A DNA stretch of 16,848 nt, from the NCBI GenBank assembly GCA_016284975.1, contig JAEEPV010000207.1, positions 1 to 16,848 on the forward strand, given 5' to 3'. This DNA comes from Solobacterium sp. (GTDB lineage Bacteria > Bacillota_I > Bacilli_A > Erysipelotrichales > Erysipelotrichaceae). Below the pieces are notes generated by a model that was not told where the DNA came from, searched no databases, and saw only the letters and a program-made list of their open reading frames with translations. Positions 3,946-16,099 of the stretch are shown piece by piece. Position 1 is the first letter of the stretch. Every line of letters begins with the position of its first letter. Made by a program: the position numbers and the translations under genes.

Positions 3946-6333
3946 TTACGCGTTCTGAGCGTTCTTTTTCTTCCCATAAAGGAAAATCAACACAGCAGCA
4001 ACAGCATAAATTACAGCACCTATCAGCATCGGCGAAAACAAACCCCGATCCGGAAGAAGCATCAGTTCCGCAATCATCGGTGCAAATGTCAGCAGTATAT
4101 AAGACAACACGATTGAAATGATAAGTGCGGTCGATTCATCTACCGAATTTTTGACCACATTAAGTCCCATAAACTGATCGGTACACATCGGTGTGCCAAA
4201 ACCATCCAGGAATCCAAGTATCATGCTGGTTATCACAATCATCATGATCAGCGGTGGTACACGCAGAATGAAGATACTTACTGCTGTCAGGATGAAAGCA
4301 AAAGCAATGGAAATCGGGACCCCAAAATACCGCTTCGCGGAACCGACCAGAGCAGGACCAACATAGATGCCGGCAAGACCGTTTGCAATGTAGCAGTAAC
4401 TCAGCATAACGGAGGAAATTCCATGTGTCTGACAAATCGCCGGAATCAGTGTTACGCAAAGCATGACACCAATATTCAGCGGAATACCGATCACCAGAAC
4501 ATAGAACAGCATCTCTGAAGAGAATACTACCTTTCTGATATCGCTTAACCGAACAGGTTTTATTTCTTCTATTGCTGATTCTGTTTTCTGCTCCAATGCT
4601 TTCCACGGAAGCAGGAAGAAGGTAGCCGCCAGATAGAGGACAAACAGGCAGGCCGAGAAGATAAAGGTCATGGCATAACTTGTATTGGCTGAAAGAATCG
4701 CACCGAGACCCGCTCCACAGGTAGCACCAGCCAGAAGGCCTGCATTATCCTGAGAAATATTCTCACTTCTTCCGGCTTCAGTCTCATAACCCTTTGTAAT
4801 CAGATAATTGGAAATCTGCTTAAAGCCTGCATATGCGATACCCGCACCGGCTCTGCAAATAATAATGGTAAGCGCTCCGCCAATGGTGAACGCTGTTACA
4901 TTACAGAAAATCATCAGTACCGTTGAGAAAAGCAGGATTCCCATCACATGATATTTCTTCACATAACGTGGAAGAATCATCATTGCTACCATCTGCATCA
5001 GACCTTCCAGGGTCAGAGGTAAAGCGGCTGTCATACCGACGGACAGACCGAACAGCGCTTCTCCGCTTTCTCGTATCAGCATAGCCGCATATGGTACACA
5101 CATGTATTCTGCGGTAGAACACAGAAATCCTGTAAACCGCAGCGCTATACCAACCTGTTTCTCTGAGAAGCCGACTTTTTTATTGCCTGATCTCTCCATC
5201 TTCTTAACAAACAGTTCAATCAGATTATTCATTTCAAAGACGAAGATCATCAGGATAATCATCGTTGAGAGCAGAACCAGCAGAATATTCCTCATTTCTT
5301 TCTGGGCCGCCTCCGTTGAAAGCTCTGCTTCAAGTATCAGCCGGGTTCCTTCCTCTTCATCAATATCAATGATATAAGAGATCAGTTCCGATTCCTCATC
5401 CTTCCGGGTAAAAGACGAGATATGATCCATTACACGAACCGAACGGACCACTGACAAAGAAGAAACTCTGTCTTCAATATACTTTTCAAGACCTTTTACT
5501 TTCCGAAGATCTACACCCTGATTCTGAACATGGCGGATTGTATCCTCCAGATTAACCATGGAGACTTCAATTGAGTCTTCCATCTTCTGCATGTAATCCT
5601 CTTGGAACTTGTTGATCGTCAGTCCGGCAAGCAAAACAATCGAAATACCCATGATAATCAGGATGAGTACCTTTTCAAAGACACGGTCCGAATTACGCCG
5701 GTGATTGGCTTTCCACTGATCATCTTTTGTGACTCTGACAAATATCGCCAGCATCAGACCTTCCAACAACGCGACTATCAGTGCGAGATTAATGATTTTT
5801 TGCCTTATGCTATGGAAGCTTTCATCGAAAATGCGAACCGAATAGAGAGAACCAAAATAGCCAATGATACTGTCATCCTGATGAATCGGTGTCAGAATCA
5901 TTCTCATCTTGTCTTTTTTCGCAATTCCGTCTTCTTTTTCTGACAGTTCCGAAAAGAGTCTTCCAAACTCTCTGGTACTCAGGAACTTCTCAATCTCACT
6001 TTTTGCTTCCTCGTTATTTGAGGAATCATAGTACATCAGTTTGCCGTCCGCCCCCAGAATAAATGGGATGGTGCCGTGAATCTGATTGTTGAATGAAGCA
6101 AAGACTTCCTCCATTCCATAGTAGTTCTCAAAGCTTTTACCAAATCCGATGGCAGTTTCCAGATCCGTTACCGAATCCTTTTCAATTTTAGAGACAACCT
6201 GTTCTTCCAGTTCCAGAGCAGATGTCCGGTAGTTCAAATAACCCATTACGGAAATAAAAATCACAGACAGCCCTGCTACCAGCAGCAAAGTCAGCAGATA
6301 AACCCAGGATTCTTTTCTACTATTCTTCTTCAT
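3946..6333 (-). CDS. MFS-like transporter protein with two N-terminal extracytoplasmic sensor-like modules
   Basis: 795 residues, about twice a normal MFS protein. Order: TM1 (11-32); extracytoplasmic segment 33-177 with Cache-like features (FILGADGKLMYYDSS, then TPIHQDDSIIGYFGSLY); TM2 (178-200); short basic cytoplasmic loop; TM3 (220-241); second extracytoplasmic segment 242-346; TM4 (349-369); then an MFS-type domain from about 388 to the end with some 12 hydrophobic helices. The usual MFS motif A between helices 2 and 3 is degenerate (ILPRYVKKYHVMGIL), so transport by the classic mechanism is not certain. Last gene of the five-gene operon; its ATG overlaps the previous stop by 4 nt (ATGA), with GGGAG 9 nt before the start. 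It may be a sensor-gated transporter or a transporter-like receptor. The substrate cannot be read from the sequence. Confidence 0.8.
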   Translation of the reverse strand: MKKNSRKESWVYLLTLLLVAGLSVIFISVMGYLNYRTSALELEEQVVSKIEKDSVTDLETAIGFGKSFENYYGMEEVFASFNNQIHGTIPFILGADGKLMYYDSSNNEEAKSEIEKFLSTREFGRLFSELSEKEDGIAKKDKMRMILTPIHQDDSIIGYFGSLYSVRIFDESFHSIRQKIINLALIVALLEGLMLAIFVRVTKDDQWKANHRRNSDRVFEKVLILIIMGISIVLLAGLTINKFQEDYMQKMEDSIEVSMVNLEDTIRHVQNQGVDLRKVKGLEKYIEDRVSSLSVVRSVRVMDHISSFTRKDEESELISYIIDIDEEEGTRLILEAELSTEAAQKEMRNILLVLLSTMIILMIFVFEMNNLIELFVKKMERSGNKKVGFSEKQVGIALRFTGFLCSTAEYMCVPYAAMLIRESGEALFGLSVGMTAALPLTLEGLMQMVAMMILPRYVKKYHVMGILLFSTVLMIFCNVTAFTIGGALTIIICRAGAGIAYAGFKQISNYLITKGYETEAGRSENISQDNAGLLAGATCGAGLGAILSANTSYAMTFIFSACLFVLYLAATFFLLPWKALEQKTESAIEEIKPVRLSDIRKVVFSSEMLFYVLVIGIPLNIGVMLCVTLIPAICQTHGISSVMLSYCYIANGLAGIYVGPALVGSAKRYFGVPISIAFAFILTAVSIFILRVPPLIMMIVITSMILGFLDGFGTPMCTDQFMGLNVVKNSVDESTALIISIVLSYILLTFAPMIAELMLLPDRGLFSPMLIGAVIYAVAAVLIFLYGKKKNAQNA

Positions 6334-7550
6334 GACTGCTTACTCCCTGCTGTAAAAATCTGATCGCATACTGCCAGAAACCCAAACGATAAAGGATACT
6401 TAATATCCATGGCAACATCATAATTTACATAAATACTGGGAGCACTCGTATAAACACAGGGAAGACTTCCTGCCTCGGCTCCATTCAGAGTTTTACCAAT
6501 TACATCTGCCACAAAGCGCCCGACGTTCTCCATATCATTTGCTGAGATCAGCATCAGTGCACCTGCTTCTACAACAGACACATCATCCATCAGATATACC
6601 GGAATCCGTTTTTCGTAGAAATAAGAAAGCAGCGGCATCAGGTATTCCATGTCATTGATCAGGTCGACCGTGAGGAAGAAGGCGTCAATGTTTTCCCCGG
6701 CCATCTCCTGGACCTTCTCTTCTACCAGTTTGTAATATGCTTCTTTATCTTCAGCGGTTTCACGCGGCTGTTCATCAATGTTGTATTTAACCAGTGAGAA
6801 CCCGATTTCTTCCGCGGATTGTTTGATATCAGGAACACCGGAAATGGTCTCATCTCCGTAAATAATCACACCCAGACGATAAAATGGTTTGATCGAATGA
6901 TAATACTTCAGCTGACGCAGAGGGAGGGACGGTTCCACCTGAGCCCAAACATAGGGATTCCCGCTTCCTTCTGTCGCAGAATCAATAATTCCGGAGGCAA
7001 CCGGATCGGTCGCAGAGAAGTCAATCATCGGAACTTTCAGATCCAGGTCTTTTACAAAAACACCTGCACTGGTACCTGTTGTAATAATCAGATCGATATC
7101 CCCTTCGCTCGCTCTTTTCTTAAGGTCTTCCGCGATTTCATTTTCATCCTCATAAGCGAGGTAATAGCAGGCCCCTGGTGAGAATTCAATGTATGGACCG
7201 AGATCTGTTTTCTCCAGAATCTCATACATCTCATCGACATACGTTTTTTCTCTCTCAATTCCCTCGGCGGTAAACGGAACGCTGCCCTCTTTGATCCACC
7301 CATTCTCCTCAAGTCCGGCCAGGATGTAGTAAAGCTGACGGCTGAAAGGAATGTATTCGTCATAAGACACAACGCATAACCGCTTCTTGGGATCACCCGA
7401 TTTCATATTCGGAGCTGTTTCGTTTGTTTCAGACTCCGGCTGATTTTCCTCAGCCTGTACAGCACAGCCGGAAAAAACCGGCAGCAGAAACAGAATTGCT
7501 GCAAGGAGCACTGCAATCCCTGTCATTTTTTGTCTCTTACCAACTCTCAT
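6330..7550 (-). CDS. ABC-type substrate-binding lipoprotein (ABC_sub_bind / TrpX-like), orphan
   Basis: 406 residues. N-terminal lipoprotein signal with a lipobox ending FSGC (Cys29); the Phe at -3 is less usual than Leu/Val. After an acidic linker, the mature part matches the ABC_sub_bind family (PF04392, which includes TrpX): KKRLCVVSYDEYIPFSRQ as first strand, a TTGTSAGVFV turn, PMIDFSATDPVASGII in the hinge region, and RLGVIIYGDE opening the second lobe. Family members bind amino acids or related small molecules outside the membrane and pass them to a permease. No permease or ATPase gene is in the window; the downstream neighbour is an MFS-like sensor protein, so this binding protein may serve sensing, or an unusual partner. 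It overlaps both neighbours by 4 nt, and AAGGTG lies about 7 nt before its ATG. Confidence 0.88.
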   Translation of the reverse strand: MRVGKRQKMTGIAVLLAAILFLLPVFSGCAVQAEENQPESETNETAPNMKSGDPKKRLCVVSYDEYIPFSRQLYYILAGLEENGWIKEGSVPFTAEGIEREKTYVDEMYEILEKTDLGPYIEFSPGACYYLAYEDENEIAEDLKKRASEGDIDLIITTGTSAGVFVKDLDLKVPMIDFSATDPVASGIIDSATEGSGNPYVWAQVEPSLPLRQLKYYHSIKPFYRLGVIIYGDETISGVPDIKQSAEEIGFSLVKYNIDEQPRETAEDKEAYYKLVEEKVQEMAGENIDAFFLTVDLINDMEYLMPLLSYFYEKRIPVYLMDDVSVVEAGALMLISANDMENVGRFVADVIGKTLNGAEAGSLPCVYTSAPSIYVNYDVAMDIKYPLSFGFLAVCDQIFTAGSKQS

Positions 7551-8680
7551 ACATACACCTTTTCCAATCTTTCGGCCGTCATACTTAACCAGTCAGAATG
7601 AACGTATTCCATGTCATTTCTGATGACAATCTGTTCATCGGTTACGCCCGGTTCCCCCAGTAAAACAGCTGTATCACCGACAGCCACGTCTTTGCAGCCT
7701 GTCACATCAATGCAGAGGTTGTCCATGCAGATCTCATCAGCCAGAGGAAATATCCTGCCTCTGATCTTAACCCGCACATCCTTTTGTGTCAGCAGCAATG
7801 GACAGTCACAGTATCCGATCATAGCCCGGGCAATTCTCCGTTTACGGGTACTGCTGTCTGTATGCTGATAAGACAAAGGAGTATCTGCATCAATCTCCCG
7901 GACATCAAAGATTCGGGCACATATCTTCATGACCGGCTTCAGACACCCGCCGTCGCCGCACATCAGTCCATACATGGCTGTTCCTGCCCGAACCATATCA
8001 TAGGAGTATTCCGGAAAACTGAATATCATGGAAGAGTTCATGACATGGACAATTATCTTCTTCCGATGATCTTCACGAATACTGTTTACCAGACGGTCAA
8101 ATTCCAGCAGTTCTTTTCTGGTTTCTTCCCGGTTCTCATTATAGTATGCAGAATACAGATGCGCGTAGAGGCCGCATATATCAATACCTTCCGCCTGGAA
8201 CAGTTTTTCTTCATTCTGCTGAAACTGCTTAAAGCCCATTCCCATTCCGGAATCCCAGATATCTACCCGGATATGGACACGAATCTTTTTTTTGCGTTTA
8301 ATCCCCAGAGCATTCAGTTTGTGAAAGTGTTCGAGACTATAAACCGAAAAAACTGCTCTGGAATCTGTATCTTTAGCCCTCTGCAGCAGAGACTCTATTT
8401 CTTTGACATCCGCCATTCCAAGGAGAAGGACATCACATCCATCATCCGGAGTCTTTCTCAGGATACGCAGCAGCTCACTGCTTTTCCCGACTGCCGTCAT
8501 TTCAACAAGCCCTTTCTCCGTTAAGAGATTTTTGACGCCGGTCAGTCCGTGTCCATATGCATTACCCTTGATCACCGCACAAATTCGGGTTCCTTCTTTT
8601 ACCCTGCTTCGTATGGTTTCCAGATTATATGCAAGAGCATCCCCGGATATTTCCACCCATGCCGCTTTATTTACTTTCAT
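7547..8680 (-). CDS. Divergent alanine-racemase-fold protein with altered active-site motif
   Basis: 377 residues from ATG 8680; that start (MKVNKAAWVEISGDALAYN) matches the usual racemase N terminus, while a longer frame to 8725 adds 15 unlike residues and runs further into the upstream gene. PLP-binding lysine Lys38 sits in AVIKGNAYGHG. Also kept: HVMNSS (212-217), VRAGTAMYGL with Arg231, the second-base Tyr271 in PLSYQHT, IGY (288-290), and CMD (318-320). Changed: the usual KVDTGMxRxG is RVDIWDSGMGMGF (138-150). The carbamylated Lys position is Arg, two or three residues are inserted, and the Arg that contacts the substrate carboxylate is missing. GYADG is GYCDC. It therefore probably binds PLP, but may act on another substrate or lack racemase activity. 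It overlaps the upstream gene by 14 nt and the downstream gene by 4 nt. A plain housekeeping alr is unlikely in this operon. Confidence 0.82.
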   Translation of the reverse strand: MKVNKAAWVEISGDALAYNLETIRSRVKEGTRICAVIKGNAYGHGLTGVKNLLTEKGLVEMTAVGKSSELLRILRKTPDDGCDVLLLGMADVKEIESLLQRAKDTDSRAVFSVYSLEHFHKLNALGIKRKKKIRVHIRVDIWDSGMGMGFKQFQQNEEKLFQAEGIDICGLYAHLYSAYYNENREETRKELLEFDRLVNSIREDHRKKIIVHVMNSSMIFSFPEYSYDMVRAGTAMYGLMCGDGGCLKPVMKICARIFDVREIDADTPLSYQHTDSSTRKRRIARAMIGYCDCPLLLTQKDVRVKIRGRIFPLADEICMDNLCIDVTGCKDVAVGDTAVLLGEPGVTDEQIVIRNDMEYVHSDWLSMTAERLEKVYV

Positions 8681-10127
8681 TTGCCACCACATTCTCCGGA
8701 TAAGCACGGAATAATTCTTCCGCAATCTTCCGATACCAGTCCGGTTCTCGTTCTTCTCTTACGGTGAGGTCGAAATACATCTCCGACAAACCGATCATAT
8801 GTCCATCCCAAAGCGATGTCTGTTTTGCCAGCTGACGTATCGTTTCAAATGAAACTGGATTTCGCCACAGTTCAACAGGACCTGCTGTTGTCGCAAACTG
8901 ATCTCCCTGATAAAGCATCAGCATTGGTCCGCAGATATATCCGGTGCAGTCATACGCACGGATGAGATCCGCCTGTTCACTGCAGCCGGATTCTTCCAAT
9001 ACTGCGCACAGAGCACTCTGCCACTGAGGAAGATACGATGCCTGGAACATTCCACCCATCCAGGTGATTCCTCTTTCAAAGAACAGAAGCATAGTCTCGG
9101 TAAACACACCGGGGAATATTTTCTTTTCCTGAAGCAAAGATGTCAGTTCAGCAGGACTCGTTCCATAGCTTACCGGTTCTTTTCGCCAGTCCGTGCCCGT
9201 GAGACGTCCTTCTTCCGTCAGACTGAGCATTACTTTACGTCCTTTTTCATCTGCCGCACGGAACAGGAGATCACCAAGAGACAACCCATCCGGCAGTTTT
9301 TTCCGGACGATTCTTTCTCTCATATCTTTGTCATATAAAAACCTGTAAATAAACGAAGTCTCATCAGACAGTTCCTTCAGTAAGAGAGAAAGTACGATCG
9401 ACTCCATTTCCAGATATACAATCGAAGGAGCTTTCTCTGAAAACAGATGGCTTGCGAGTTTTCTTCCGAGTACCGTTGTCTGATCAGAGAAAGACTCTGC
9501 TTTTTTCAGGTCTTCTTCGCTGTAAACATCACGGCATATTTCCTCAAGCACCTGTCTCAGCGACAGATCTTCCCCTTCGGCAACAAAGCGCTTGCGGAAC
9601 CGGTCAATCATTTCCGGTGAAACAAGATCCGCGTGTGAAGCAAGCTGTACACTAAACTTTGCCGGAAACAGCGGCAGAAACTGTTTATTATCTCTGGAAA
9701 AATAAGCACTGATACCTCTTGAATAAGTGGAATTTTCCAGTTCCACCTGTCCGGCAGCCAGAACCGGAACATAGTTGTTCCGGTTTCCCAGCTTTTCCAG
9801 AATCAGAGCAAGCAGGATATTTCCCTGCAGAAACTGCGAGCAGTAAAGAGAGCCATGATGGTCTGCTGTACCGATTACTTTTTCTTTCAAAACTTCCCGG
9901 ATCCCCGCCGCATCTTCTTCTCCAAGCAGCTTGCGGGTTAAAGCTTCGGCAGCTTCTTCAAAATCTTTTGAATCGCGAAGAGAACCGACCTGCTGGTTAT
10001 GTTTTACTTTCTGTGCCTGTACTTCCGCAAAGAAATCAAGACTCATCCCGCCAAATGCATAACTAGCCATAACAGTGTCGTTGCGCTGCCTGCACAGTTC
10101 TGCCATTCGGCTCGCACAGTTCGTCAT
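8667..10127 (-). CDS. Unrecognised 486-residue soluble protein, second gene of the phosphatase operon
   Basis: I do not recognise the family. The protein has no signal peptide and no membrane helix, so it is probably cytoplasmic. Visible features: TADHHGSLYCSQFLQGN at 88-104, a possible functional motif with paired His; AAGQVELENSTYSRG (124-138); a charged alpha-helical middle; and a late aromatic stretch ITWMGGMFQASYLPQW followed by AYDCTGYICGP. The pattern of conserved-looking Gly/His/Trp motifs suggests an enzyme rather than a scaffold; this is inference. The ATG overlaps the phosphatase stop by 4 nt (ATGA), and the 3' end overlaps the racemase-like gene by 14 nt, so translation of the three is likely coupled. 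Position suggests a substrate or partner of the phosphatase, or an enzyme acting on the same small molecule as the racemase-like protein. Confidence 0.8.
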   Translation of the reverse strand: MTNCASRMAELCRQRNDTVMASYAFGGMSLDFFAEVQAQKVKHNQQVGSLRDSKDFEEAAEALTRKLLGEEDAAGIREVLKEKVIGTADHHGSLYCSQFLQGNILLALILEKLGNRNNYVPVLAAGQVELENSTYSRGISAYFSRDNKQFLPLFPAKFSVQLASHADLVSPEMIDRFRKRFVAEGEDLSLRQVLEEICRDVYSEEDLKKAESFSDQTTVLGRKLASHLFSEKAPSIVYLEMESIVLSLLLKELSDETSFIYRFLYDKDMRERIVRKKLPDGLSLGDLLFRAADEKGRKVMLSLTEEGRLTGTDWRKEPVSYGTSPAELTSLLQEKKIFPGVFTETMLLFFERGITWMGGMFQASYLPQWQSALCAVLEESGCSEQADLIRAYDCTGYICGPMLMLYQGDQFATTAGPVELWRNPVSFETIRQLAKQTSLWDGHMIGLSEMYFDLTVREEREPDWYRKIAEELFRAYPENVVANESK

Positions 10128-11914
10128 TCTTTATCAGCCTTTCCGTAATAGATGAAACTAAGCATGGTAATATCATCAAACTGCGGTGCATCACCGACAA
10201 ATTCATCAATTTCCTTTTTCACGCTCGGCAGCAGCTTGGCAGGTAATGCGTCCGGATCTCTGTTGAGAGCTGCCATCATCCGCTCTTCACCAAACAGTTC
10301 GTTGTCTGCGTTTGTAGCTTCCATTACGCCGTCCGTATAGACAAAGAGTCTGTCTCCCGGATCCAGATGAATTTCACTCTGACGGTACTTCATGCCTTCC
10401 ATCGCCGCAACTGCCATCGAATGCTTGGACTTGATCAGTTTATAAGGCCGGTTTCCTCTGCGGATCGCAGGATATTCATGTCCGGCGTTCACCTCATAAC
10501 CATCACCTGTTTCGAGGTCAATTACCGCCAGCCATACCGTTACGAAGAACTGTGACTCATTTCCTTCGCAGAGCTGGTTGTTTACGTTCGTAACAGCTTC
10601 TGCAGGAGATTCGCCGGTCTGGAGCCGGTTCTTGATCAGAGTCTTGGCGATGACCATGAACAGCGCAGCCGGAACACCCTTTCCGGATACATCCGCGATT
10701 ACAAGAGCAAGATGTGTATCATCAACCAGGAAGAAGTCATAGAAGTCACCACCAACTTCCTTCGCCGGTGTCATGGATGCAAAGATACCAACTTCTTTTT
10801 TGTCCGGGAATGCCGGGAAAATCTTCGGCAGCATATCTGCCTGAATCTGAGTAGCAATATTCAGATCCGCATCAATACGTTCTTTCTCCGCCGTGATCCG
10901 CTGGAGATTATTCATGTAATTCTCCAGTTCGAGAATCATATTTCCAAAGCTTTTTGCCAGAACACCGATTTCATCCTGCGGACCGGCGTTTGCGATAATC
11001 TCATTTGCGATCGTGGGATCCTTCTTTTCAGAGTAATCCTTGACCTCACGTTCAATCTGTACGATACGGTTCAGGATCTCTTTACGCAGCAGGAAATAGA
11101 GGATGGCAGTGACTACGATCAATACAAGGGCAGTTACAAGTTCCTGTTTAATAACACCCTGCATGATCTCCTCATTGACATAATCAACACTGATCTCAGA
11201 GCACATAAGACCTACCTTCTCTCCGTTGATTAACACCGGCATGCAGTAGGTGTATACATGGCCAAACTCATTATTCAGAGTATCAAATCCGTTCTGGACT
11301 TCGCCTGTATTCCAGGCTTCCCACATATACTTATGGATTTCGGGATCTTCATAAACAACATCTCCGAGTTTGAGGATCTCTTTTCCGTCTTCCGTCGTTA
11401 TCGTCTCCATGGTCGGATCGAACATGTAATTCATCTTCAGATCCTCTTCACTTTCAGGATAGATAAAATAGACGTAGCTCAGATCAAAATCCTCACATGC
11501 ATCAAAAAAGGTAGTAAACCAGTAATCAAAAGAATAATTTACAAAAAGGCGCTGACCTTCCAAATCCAGATCATCAAAGCTGATATCCGTTCCATAGGCT
11601 TTTCCGGGATAATTATCCGCAACATAGCGGGTAAAAGCTTTCTCAGCTTCCGGCAGAGCCGCACGGAAATCTACCGGAACCTGTACCAGATCCTGATGTT
11701 CCTTAAACCACTTTTTCAGGTGAACAAATTCTTCCCCTTCACCCTGAATCTGTCCGGTCAGATTTGTTGTCAGTCTTCTCAGATCCGTCACACATTCTTC
11801 ATGGTAGGCGGAATTCTGAGCGGCATACGTCATCGTTCCGTTGATGATGATCGTTATTACTGCAAACAGAATAAAGACAAGCGCAAATAATTTCGTTAAA
11901 CTTCTTTTTTTCAT
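10124..11914 (-). CDS. Cache-HAMP-PP2C (RsbU/SpoIIE-type) membrane serine phosphatase
   Basis: 596 residues. TM1 (9-29); extracytoplasmic Cache-like sensor about 30-257 (SYVYFIYPESEED at 146-158, then YTYCMPVLINGEKVGLMCSEI at its end); TM2 (258-276); HAMP-type linker (277-335) with DEIGVLAKSFGNM; coiled coil; PPM/SpoIIE phosphatase domain about 350-590. Metal-binding motifs are complete: GGDFYDFF (Asp390), ADVSGKG (Asp408), VNAGHEYP, YTDGVMEA (Asp528) and FDDITML (Asp580/581). Family members dephosphorylate Ser/Thr on STAS anti-anti-sigma proteins and so release sigma factors; here no STAS or RsbW gene is nearby, so the target must be elsewhere or different. It is the first gene of the five-gene operon. 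The start at MKKRS is supported by an AAGG/AGGGA ribosome binding site and by TM1 following directly; a promoter lies about 40 nt upstream. Confidence 0.92.
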   Translation of the reverse strand: MKKRSLTKLFALVFILFAVITIIINGTMTYAAQNSAYHEECVTDLRRLTTNLTGQIQGEGEEFVHLKKWFKEHQDLVQVPVDFRAALPEAEKAFTRYVADNYPGKAYGTDISFDDLDLEGQRLFVNYSFDYWFTTFFDACEDFDLSYVYFIYPESEEDLKMNYMFDPTMETITTEDGKEILKLGDVVYEDPEIHKYMWEAWNTGEVQNGFDTLNNEFGHVYTYCMPVLINGEKVGLMCSEISVDYVNEEIMQGVIKQELVTALVLIVVTAILYFLLRKEILNRIVQIEREVKDYSEKKDPTIANEIIANAGPQDEIGVLAKSFGNMILELENYMNNLQRITAEKERIDADLNIATQIQADMLPKIFPAFPDKKEVGIFASMTPAKEVGGDFYDFFLVDDTHLALVIADVSGKGVPAALFMVIAKTLIKNRLQTGESPAEAVTNVNNQLCEGNESQFFVTVWLAVIDLETGDGYEVNAGHEYPAIRRGNRPYKLIKSKHSMAVAAMEGMKYRQSEIHLDPGDRLFVYTDGVMEATNADNELFGEERMMAALNRDPDALPAKLLPSVKKEIDEFVGDAPQFDDITMLSFIYYGKADKE

Positions 11915-11955: not shown

Positions 11956-11984
11956 ATTATCGTAAATCTGCCCATCAAAATCAA
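11956..11984 (-). promoter_or_regulatory. Sigma-A-type promoter of the phosphatase operon
   Basis: On the minus strand TTGATT (11984-11979) is separated by exactly 17 nt from GATAAT (11961-11956). Transcription would start near 11949, giving a leader of about 35 nt that contains the AAGG-type ribosome binding site of the phosphatase gene. No other promoter-like pair was seen inside the operon, where the genes overlap. Confidence 0.6.
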
Positions 11985-14253: not shown

Positions 14254-14844
14254 ATGTCATTTGGTGAAACGTTAAAACGGCTGCGTATGGAAAAGGGACT
14301 ATCCCAGCAGCAGCTTGCAGAAATGGTATTTGTAGACCGTTCCAGCGTCACAAGATGGGAATCGGGAAACCGGCTTCCGGACGCGATGATGATCATGCGG
14401 CTTTCCGAATGCCTTGGAACTGATGTAACCGAACTTCTTAATGCGGCCAAAAACCCGGAAGGAGTACCAAATGTGATTCTCGTGGATGATGAAAAAATCA
14501 TTCTGAGAGGCGGTCTTCCGATTCTTGAAAAAGCATTTCCCAACGCAGCCGTGACCGGGTTTACCCGTCCGCATCAGGTAATTTCCTTTGCCCGGGAAAA
14601 TCGAATTGATCTTGCGTTTCTTGATATTGAAACCGGTTCTTTGAACGGGATTGAACTCTGTCGGAAACTTCTTGACATTTATCCCCGTACAAACGTCATT
14701 TTCCTGACCGCGTTTCCGGACTATTCTCTGGACGCATGGTCAACCGGCGCGTGTGGTTTTCTGATCAAGCCGCTTTCCGTCGAAGCAATACGCAGACAAC
14801 TTCCTTTCCTGCGCTATCCTGTCCGAGGCCTGGAGAATGACTGA
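14254..14844 (+). CDS. Response regulator with N-terminal XRE helix-turn-helix and C-terminal receiver
   Basis: 196 residues. Residues 4-62 form an XRE/Cro-type helix-turn-helix (LKRLRMEKGLSQQQLAEM, then SSVTRWESGNRLP). Residues 73-187 form a receiver domain with all key residues: Asp78-Asp79 in LVDDE, phospho-acceptor Asp124 in FLDIE, Thr152 in FLTAF and Lys172 in LIKPL. The order is the reverse of a classical regulator, where the receiver comes first, and replaces the LytTR domain that usually goes with a LytS-type kinase. It should control transcription in response to phosphorylation by the kinase encoded next, which it overlaps by 8 nt. Its own promoter and a small palindrome lie upstream, so autoregulation is possible (inference). 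Confidence 0.92.
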   Translation: MSFGETLKRLRMEKGLSQQQLAEMVFVDRSSVTRWESGNRLPDAMMIMRLSECLGTDVTELLNAAKNPEGVPNVILVDDEKIILRGGLPILEKAFPNAAVTGFTRPHQVISFARENRIDLAFLDIETGSLNGIELCRKLLDIYPRTNVIFLTAFPDYSLDAWSTGACGFLIKPLSVEAIRRQLPFLRYPVRGLEND

Positions 14845-16099
14845 CCTGCTGAATACAATCAATTTTTCCATTAACGTCGCTGCTCTGGTGATTGCCATGA
14901 TCAGTTTTTCTGCGTGCCTTGTCGCACGAAATATTGATTTTGAGACCCGTCGCTTTTTTACCGTCTTTTTCAGTATCCTGATTCTGTATGCTTTCTTCAG
15001 TACCGTAGGTCAAATTTCGGTATTGTTTTCCGATAATGCAAGGATTTTGAAATTCTCTGTTTTCATGCACTCCCTGTTATCTTCGCTGCTGATGCCAATG
15101 CTGACGATATACATGCTTCATACCTGTAACGAAAACTATAGAACGAGCCATGTGTTTAAAGCTGTTTTCGGACTCTGGATCATTTATATACTTCTTTTGA
15201 TCTTCACGCAGTTCACCAAACATATTTATTACATTACCCCAAACGGTGACTATTTCCGCGGTCCTTATTATCCTGTTCTTCTGATTCCCCCGGTGCTGAT
15301 CATGGTTGTAAACATCATCGCCCTGATCCGCAGAAAAGACCGGTTCCCTTCCCGTTATTTCCTTGCTTTTATGATCTACTTTCTGATCCCGATGATTTCC
15401 ATGATTATTCAGATGGTTTCTTTCGGTTTATTGACGATCACGCTCGGAACGACTTTAGGTGCTGTGCTCCTGTTTTTTTTCATTGTTTATACACAAGTCG
15501 AAAAAGCTGTCCATCAGCAGGATGAAAACTCCCGGCTTCAGGCAGCGAACACCGTACTGCAGATGCGGCCGCATTTCATTTACAATACGATGACAAGTAT
15601 TTATTACCTGATCCAGCAGAATCCTGAAAAAGCACAGCAGGTCACCCTCGATTTCACAACGTATCTGCGCAAGAATTTTGCGGCAATCGCCAAGGATACT
15701 CCAATCCCCTTCACCTCGGAACTGGAACACACCAAAGCATATCTTGCGGTGGAACAGGTCCGGTTTGAAGGAGATCTCTTTGTAACGTTTGATACACCGC
15801 ATACCTCATTTATGATTCCTCCCCTTACCCTTCAGCCGATTGTTGAGAATGCGGTTAAATATGGGGTTGATCCGGAACTTGAGCCCATGTATCTGACGAT
15901 CATCACAAGAAAAACGAACCATGCAAGTGAAATCACGGTGAAAGATACCGGACCGGGATTTCAAAATGACGAAAACGGCGAGCCGCATATTGCACTGGAG
16001 AATATTGCCAAACGCCTCCAGTCGATGTGCAAAGGCAATCTGATCATTGAATCGCAGATAGATCAGGGAACATCCGTCCGAATTGAGATTCCGGATTAA
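14837..16099 (+). CDS. LytS-type membrane sensor histidine kinase
   Basis: 420 residues. Residues 1-220 carry six or seven hydrophobic helices with short loops and no large extracellular domain, so the signal is probably sensed in or at the membrane. A short coiled linker (221-240) leads to the His_kinase domain (PF06580): LQMRPHFIYNTM with phospho-acceptor His246, N-box LQPIVENAVKYG with Asn338, and G-box VKDTGPGF (368-375). It is the partner of the XRE-receiver regulator because the ATG lies inside that gene's end (8-nt overlap). A GGAG ends just one base before the ATG, so initiation probably depends on translational coupling. The stop is TAA. The signal is unknown; the nearby GH13 gene has its own terminator and need not be a target. 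Confidence 0.92.
   Translation: MTDLLNTINFSINVAALVIAMISFSACLVARNIDFETRRFFTVFFSILILYAFFSTVGQISVLFSDNARILKFSVFMHSLLSSLLMPMLTIYMLHTCNENYRTSHVFKAVFGLWIIYILLLIFTQFTKHIYYITPNGDYFRGPYYPVLLIPPVLIMVVNIIALIRRKDRFPSRYFLAFMIYFLIPMISMIIQMVSFGLLTITLGTTLGAVLLFFFIVYTQVEKAVHQQDENSRLQAANTVLQMRPHFIYNTMTSIYYLIQQNPEKAQQVTLDFTTYLRKNFAAIAKDTPIPFTSELEHTKAYLAVEQVRFEGDLFVTFDTPHTSFMIPPLTLQPIVENAVKYGVDPELEPMYLTIITRKTNHASEITVKDTGPGFQNDENGEPHIALENIAKRLQSMCKGNLIIESQIDQGTSVRIEIPD

Follow-up and report, generated by a model that had tools for sequence, protein, structure and literature searches.

In this study, we show that five overlapping genes in a 16,848-nucleotide stretch of Solobacterium sp. DNA (contig JAEEPV010000207.1; the whole stretch is referred to here as the window) belong to a gene cassette that recurs in related and distant bacteria. 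The genes encode a membrane-bound SpoIIE/RsbU-type PP2C phosphatase (gene A), an enzyme with a predicted BshC fold (gene B), an alanine-racemase-family paralogue (gene C), an orphan ATP-binding cassette (ABC)-type substrate-binding protein (gene D), and a major facilitator superfamily (MFS) protein with two predicted extracytoplasmic sensor modules (gene E, the sensor-MFS). The overlaps and conserved order of the genes, the fold predicted for B, the predicted architecture of E and the recurrence of the cassette with swapped enzyme families lead us to propose, tentatively and with somewhat less than even credence in the full mechanism, that the five genes are one unit of a make-export-sense system. 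Enzyme B would ligate an amino acid to an amine acceptor, and the racemase paralogue C, where present, would supply or tailor the amino acid for it. The MFS domain of E would export the product, possibly gated by the two sensor modules, and the secreted protein D would bind the product outside the cell and pass it to A and/or E at their extracytoplasmic domains. Finally, the PP2C domain of A would dephosphorylate an unlinked STAS anti-anti-sigma protein and so change gene expression. Such a cassette would explain both a binding protein without an ABC importer and a pump with outward-facing sensors.

The five open reading frames (ORFs) span 11914-3946 on the minus strand, on contig C269 of a source genome (G000) of 2.2 Mb in 378 contigs with 70% completeness. 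Gene A (11914-10124, 596 aa), gene B (10127-8667, 486 aa), gene C (8680-7547, 377 aa), gene D (7550-6330, 406 aa) and gene E (6333-3946, 795 aa) overlap consecutively by 4, 14, 4 and 4 nt when gene C is read from its ATG start; its ORF can alternatively open at a TTG at 8725. The five-gene operon with overlaps at all junctions, as described in an earlier sequence-only reading of this DNA, is therefore confirmed. The same overlaps are present in locus L010 (genome G038), and in L002 (genome G037) the first junction is a 3-nt gap followed by overlaps of 14 and 4 nt, the last junction not being firm because the start taken for gene E there is no start codon. An intrinsic-terminator-like hairpin 3' of gene E (3903-3869, minus strand; 15 bp, ending in U; dG -24.3, z -5.3 against 200 shuffles, none of which was as good) gives the five-gene unit a plausible end. 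Upstream of gene A lies a weak promoter-like match, TTGATT-17-GATAAT (11956-11984, minus strand), with similar letters in G037 and not in G038; such matches are in no excess across the window (21 vs. 27.7 expected from shuffles). We infer that the five genes are a single transcription unit, read as one transcript.

Gene B neighbourhoods were obtained from seven genomes, and the order A-B-D-E is complete in six of them: the window, L002/L011 (both in G037, which G761 repeats), L010, L003, L005 and L027. The seventh, L004, is cut at both contig ends and has B and D between truncated copies of A and E, in the same order. Protein identity to the window runs from 84-89% in L002, a locus of Solobacterium metagenome-assembled genome RGIG5676 from sheep duodenum and the closest named one among those found, down to 27-43% in L027, and the junctions of the operons measured overlap or lie no more than 17 bases apart. 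The racemase is an optional module of the cassette: in the window, L002 and L010 gene C stands between B and D, in L027 it precedes A, and L003, L004 and L005 have none. The common job that had been proposed from the overlaps is now strongly supported, because the neighbourhood check found that the genes are not scattered singly in the readable Bacillota relatives. The cassette is rare. Gene B turned up in 3 of 272 genomes of its own family, in 1 of 395 at class level, in 2 of 392 at phylum level (one of these, G740, with a match of 17 bits over 47 positions) and in 3 of 45 genomes of the genus of G759. For gene E the counts were 1 of 382 genomes of the phylum at E<=1e-60 and, within the family and the class of G758, 2 of 247 and 1 of 148 at E<=1e-50; no gene E was found in viral contigs. 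Both B and E are encoded in Butyrivibrio sp. AE3004 and MC2013, and many named gene E homologues lie in Lachnospiraceae. Beside the divergent operon of L027, on the opposite strand, a 4'-phosphopantetheinyl-transferase-like ORF was recognised by eye (L027:755-1327).

The predicted structure of gene B matches BshC, the bacillithiol synthase (Bacillus subtilis YllA, PDB 4wbd), over 380 of its 486 residues, with the same overall fold of a Rossmann core and added helical parts. However, gene B is shorter (486 vs. 540 residues) and sits in a signalling and transport operon rather than among bacillithiol genes. Its invariant residues include H90 and G92 (in the segment TADHHG), G138, Q216, E242, F289, P339, G353, G358-G359, Y365 and E449. 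The relation to BshC is structural only, since the sequence-level searches came back empty: the window protein has no Pfam or NCBIfam match, a profile search of PDB sequences with the gene B alignment gave only antibody chance matches, and proteins P0046 and P0047 had no meaningful match in PDB. Protein searching reached 47 gene B proteins, and a second search with the alignment reached no further (46). Thus the 486-residue protein, which the sequence-only reading could not place, still matches no Pfam or NCBIfam family but can now be placed by fold. A biosynthetic fold points to making a molecule and not only to sensing and processing one, and on the strength of the structural model we regard gene B as a putative ligase-like enzyme.

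Gene E combines an MFS domain, seen both as an MFS_1 (PF07690) match and by structure comparison, with two N-terminal extracytoplasmic modules. Module 1 (5794-6246, minus strand; residues about 30-180, flanked by hydrophobic segments 11-29 and 180-198) is predicted to follow a PAS/Cache-like order of long helix, helix, two strands, two helices, three strands and long helix. Module 2 (5287-5613, minus strand; residues about 241-349, between hydrophobic segments 222-240 and 350-368) is smaller, with three strands, and is partly of low confidence (pLDDT, the per-residue model confidence, below 50 at residues 304-316). The MFS-like protein with two sensor modules was thus confirmed as a sensor-MFS and recurs in other phyla, but neither module is seen by Pfam and both rest on the hydrophobic segments and the model, their fold being read from secondary structure only because the structure-match lists were filled by MFS folds. 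Unlike exporters of the DHA1 type such as NorA and SotB, the sensor-MFS proteins have about 390-590 extra N-terminal residues and two extracytoplasmic modules; the match of gene E to TIGR00880 is 38 bits (cut-off 131). A simple hydropathy scan of ten sensor-MFS proteins found four extra hydrophobic segments in 8, five in L037 and three in L038.

Gene D belongs to the same Pfam family as the TrpX-type binding proteins (ABC_sub_bind, PF04392, 41.9 bits). In contrast to TrpX, it scores far under the TrpX equivalog cut-off (27.6 vs. 390 bits) and has no adjoining ABC partner; no ABC partner gene was detected among the ten window genes scanned. Its N-terminus has a lipobox-like FSGC in the window protein that is not kept in L010. 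A TrpX-like binding protein without an ABC partner, as had been noticed from the window alone, holds good and recurs in other phyla.

The racemase-like enzyme, which had been suspected of altered motifs, indeed has them. Gene C matches Ala_racemase_N and Ala_racemase_C (PF01168, 126 bits; PF00842, 73 bits) as well as TIGR00492 (179.2 bits vs. a cut-off of 168), and it keeps the pyridoxal phosphate (PLP) lysine, Lys38, and is without the arginine of the DTGMxRxG motif. The Alr-family alignment held 18 proteins, namely 8 cassette racemases (all four of Bacillota and four of the eight of Azospirillum, described below) and 10 others; the partial row L057, which also has the DTGMxRxG arginine, was dropped from it. 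Cassette racemases retain the PLP lysine (8 of 8), the VRxG arginine and the C-terminal-domain tyrosine, whereas the DTGMxRxG arginine is found in none of the 8, with L027 having an arginine one column later, and in all 10 of the others. Those of Azospirillum additionally are without the D of the MD pair. The DTGMxRxG arginine serves as a carboxylate contact in this family. These losses suggest that the cassette racemases have a different substrate or a modified reaction. Genomes with gene C (G000, G037, G038 and G825) have a canonical Alr elsewhere as well, with a third, partial match below the cut-off in G038, and those without it (G758, G759 and G760) have one Alr-type gene each. In the tree that includes rhizobial and Streptomyces Alr proteins, the window-type and L027 racemases group with a support of 0.998.

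The phosphatase domain of gene A is clear (PF07228, residues 398-585, 156 bits, cut-off 25), and the translation carries GGDFYD, ADVSGKG, TDGV and QFDD, which we take to be PP2C-type motifs. Its N-terminus appears to hold an extracytoplasmic region at about 30-250 followed by a HAMP-like linker. Of the Cache-bearing RsbU-type phosphatase put forward in the sequence-only reading, the PP2C part stands, but Pfam detects no Cache domain in the window protein; among four Bacillota relatives scanned, there is a sub-threshold dCache_1 in L003 (E 0.0096) and a sub-threshold HAMP in L010, and the Aureimonas relative has dCache_2 and HAMP, both above cut-off. Like SiaA and RsbU, gene A joins a PP2C domain to a membrane-bound N-terminal region, and its best NCBIfam match is SiaA (NF038263), at 66 bits far under the cut-off of 700. 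It differs from the RsbU/SpoIIE systems in being linked to an enzyme, a binding protein and a sensor-MFS, with no linked STAS or anti-sigma kinase gene among the ten window genes scanned, an absence that the sequence-only reading had noted. STAS matches were found in five of six distinct genomes (seven searched, including the duplicate G761), three of them in G000 and none on the operon contig. In G758 (L069:2571-4503) and G759 (L070:1097-3020), a STAS gene adjoins a STAS-APH-HATPase_c_2 fusion, unlinked to the operon; this pair is a ready partner-switching unit of unusual fused form. The output of gene A in the window lineage is probably an unlinked STAS protein. By itself gene A does not mark the cassette, as its phosphatase part matches 325 plasmid records.

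Relatives of the cassette were found beyond Bacillota. A tblastn search of 72,556 plasmid records with gene B gave nine matches. Three are Nitratidesulfovibrio vulgaris plasmids with the order D-E-B, E being 1012 aa in the one analysed. The other six are Streptomyces plasmids in which B is adjoined or overlapped by a plain MFS gene, and the two regions opened there are biosynthetic-looking clusters; the cluster of L028 encodes L-amino-acid-ligase ATP-grasp, diaminopimelate-epimerase-like, PLP decarboxylase and FemAB-like proteins. This plasmid end (L028:880-15363) also encodes an amidinotransferase and may be an unexplored natural-product cluster. With gene D as query, 14 plasmid records matched, of which 12 cover at least 80%; all 12 were opened, and in each a large MFS gene stands next to D or one gene away. 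The two weak matches (Microvirga, 23% identity) had no such MFS neighbour and no cassette. Window E as query gave no plasmid match, and plasmid E genes were recognised by their position beside D and a weaker protein comparison. All eight Azospirillum records have an alanine racemase, D, E and GNAT in this order; seven of them continue with a cyclase gene, and the one in strain Sp7 encodes Cache and HAMP domains. In seven of the eight (L038, L045, L048-L052), the gene immediately upstream of the racemase encodes a patatin-like phospholipase. In Aureimonas, a SpoIIE phosphatase gene (dCache_2, HAMP) precedes D, and E with a GCS2 ligase gene is convergent on the opposite strand. The eight Azospirillum records, being close relatives, stand for one or two lineages, and the three of Nitratidesulfovibrio for a single one.

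The constant part of these loci is D plus E, neither of which occurs in the Streptomyces regions. What varies is a member of an amide- or acyl-bond-forming family (BshC-like, GCS2 or GNAT), joined by a racemase in several lineages, and an output membrane protein with an extracytoplasmic sensor, either PP2C phosphatase or cyclase, except in Nitratidesulfovibrio and one Azospirillum. It is possible, if doubtful, that these loci represent a class of cell-to-cell signalling shared across phyla, in which an amino-acid-derived autoinducer would be made by a BshC-like, GCS2 or GNAT enzyme, in many cases together with a specialised racemase, a sensor-fused MFS protein would release it and read its level outside, and an orphan binding protein would hand it to a PP2C phosphatase or cyclase. 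Some candidates were not counted. Sphingomonas paeninsulae (L040) has a phosphatase, STAS and a gene annotated as MFS that matches HEAT repeats and not MFS_1, and MFS matches in Azospirillum and Vibrio (H66, H69, H72 and H76) had no cassette or no annotation. Another pairing of binding protein and phosphatase was seen on a Thiodictyon plasmid (L046), where successive genes encode STAS, an ABC binding protein, a SpoIIE phosphatase and HATPase.

Several observations weigh against the make-export-sense proposal. The BshC family model PF10079 finds no match in window B at E<=0.1, in five relatives at E<=5 or in two relatives at E<=0.01, and gene B is therefore not filed as BshC. According to a 2015 review (PMC4360819), the ligation by BshC had itself not been demonstrated in vitro. 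The folds closest to gene E are mixed: the structural comparison gives the antiporters NorA and SotB but also proteins other than drug exporters, with SLC37A4 ranking first and MCT1 and OCT1 among them. Homologues of E outnumber those of B (113 vs. 47, in searches of unequal sensitivity), so that many E genes may have other partners. Nitratidesulfovibrio D-E-B has no adjoining phosphatase or racemase, a SpoIIE phosphatase being encoded elsewhere on the plasmids, and a tenth plasmid relative of B, the weak partial match H19 in Rhizobium etli (28% identity over 39%, with P0046 as the only query to find it), has no MFS gene or cassette beside it. Adjacency to GNAT or cyclase genes is no proof, these being common families. 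A single origin of the cassette racemases had a support of 0.916 in a first tree; after rhizobial and Streptomyces Alr proteins were added, support at the node that decides between the Azospirillum and window racemases fell to 0.31, and a common origin is therefore not claimed.

The strongest alternative, in our view unlikely, is that the cassette senses and scavenges: D would capture an amino-acid-like compound from the environment, such as a D-amino acid or a peptidoglycan fragment, E would import it, C and B would modify it and A would report it. Uptake is the usual role of substrate-binding proteins, TrpX itself belongs to PF04392, and in L003 the last 4 nt of E are shared with a gene of alanine-dehydrogenase type (PF01262/PF05222), racemase and dehydrogenase together being typical of amino-acid catabolism. 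However, in none of the cassette loci read is D adjoined by a gene for an ABC permease or ATPase, the fold of B is biosynthetic, and the MFS domain resembles antiporters NorA and SotB among others. Pure uptake is further disfavoured because it would have no need of a ligase with relatives that adjoin MFS genes, in one case inside the biosynthetic-looking Streptomyces cluster. The original idea of an amino-acid-like ligand that is sensed, processed and signalled by dephosphorylation survives as regards the common job, but the fold of B points to making the molecule and the racemase is optional.

It is quite improbable that B and C make an antimicrobial that E pumps out, with D and A serving a stress or immunity response of the producer. 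An MFS fold near drug antiporters, a racemase family near VanT (NF033131, 200 bits, below the cut-off of 460) and a B relative in a natural-product-like Streptomyces cluster would all suit such a weapon, but signalling is the better fit for a pump bearing sensor modules and for a dedicated binding protein, the operon has no further tailoring enzymes, and the swapping in of small enzymes such as GNAT suggests a simple product. We consider it very unlikely that B and its GCS2 counterpart are cysteine ligases of a low-molecular-weight thiol, which the cell would secrete and monitor. In Aureimonas a GCS2-family gene does occupy the place of the enzyme, and the cysteine ligases of bacillithiol, mycothiol and glutathione are BshC, MshC and GshA (PMC4360819). 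Yet the racemase and GNAT partners would go unexplained, the operon has no BshA/BshB-like genes (the rest of the genome was not searched for these), and a search of 61 genomes of the phylum, including the source genome at its 70% completeness, gave no canonical BshC. An ordinary local operon of unrelated functions is scarcely credible, for although bacteria commonly pack genes tightly, the A-B-D-E order is the same at 27-89% protein identity and the D plus E core extends to other phyla.

Sensing of the LuxP-LuxQ type joins a periplasmic binding protein to a membrane receptor, and the cassette likewise encodes an orphan binding protein beside a membrane receptor with an extracytoplasmic domain. 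In contrast to LuxP-LuxQ, the output of the cassette is a PP2C phosphatase or cyclase and not a kinase, and it carries its own candidate exporter and candidate ligase. When the open PMC literature, which includes few subscription papers, was searched for this combination, for BshC-like families and for sensor-fused MFS proteins, no paper on such a cassette was among those listed. If the make-export-sense proposal is true, it would mean that gut and rumen Bacillota, Nitratidesulfovibrio, Aureimonas and Azospirillum share an undescribed small-molecule signalling cassette whose transporter carries its own outward-facing sensors. It would also give a first functional context to the gene B family, which matches no Pfam or NCBIfam model, and extend the BshC fold beyond bacillithiol. 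The places to seek the molecule would then be Butyrivibrio, Nitratidesulfovibrio vulgaris and Azospirillum brasilense.

Elsewhere in the window (14254-16099), the gene of an HTH_3 and receiver-domain fusion and the next gene, for a membrane histidine kinase of PF06580 type, overlap by 8 nt, and this pair also lies beside the operon in G037. At the other end, a large protein encoded at 197-2818 combines a class 3 lipase domain with a hydrophobic C-terminal region.

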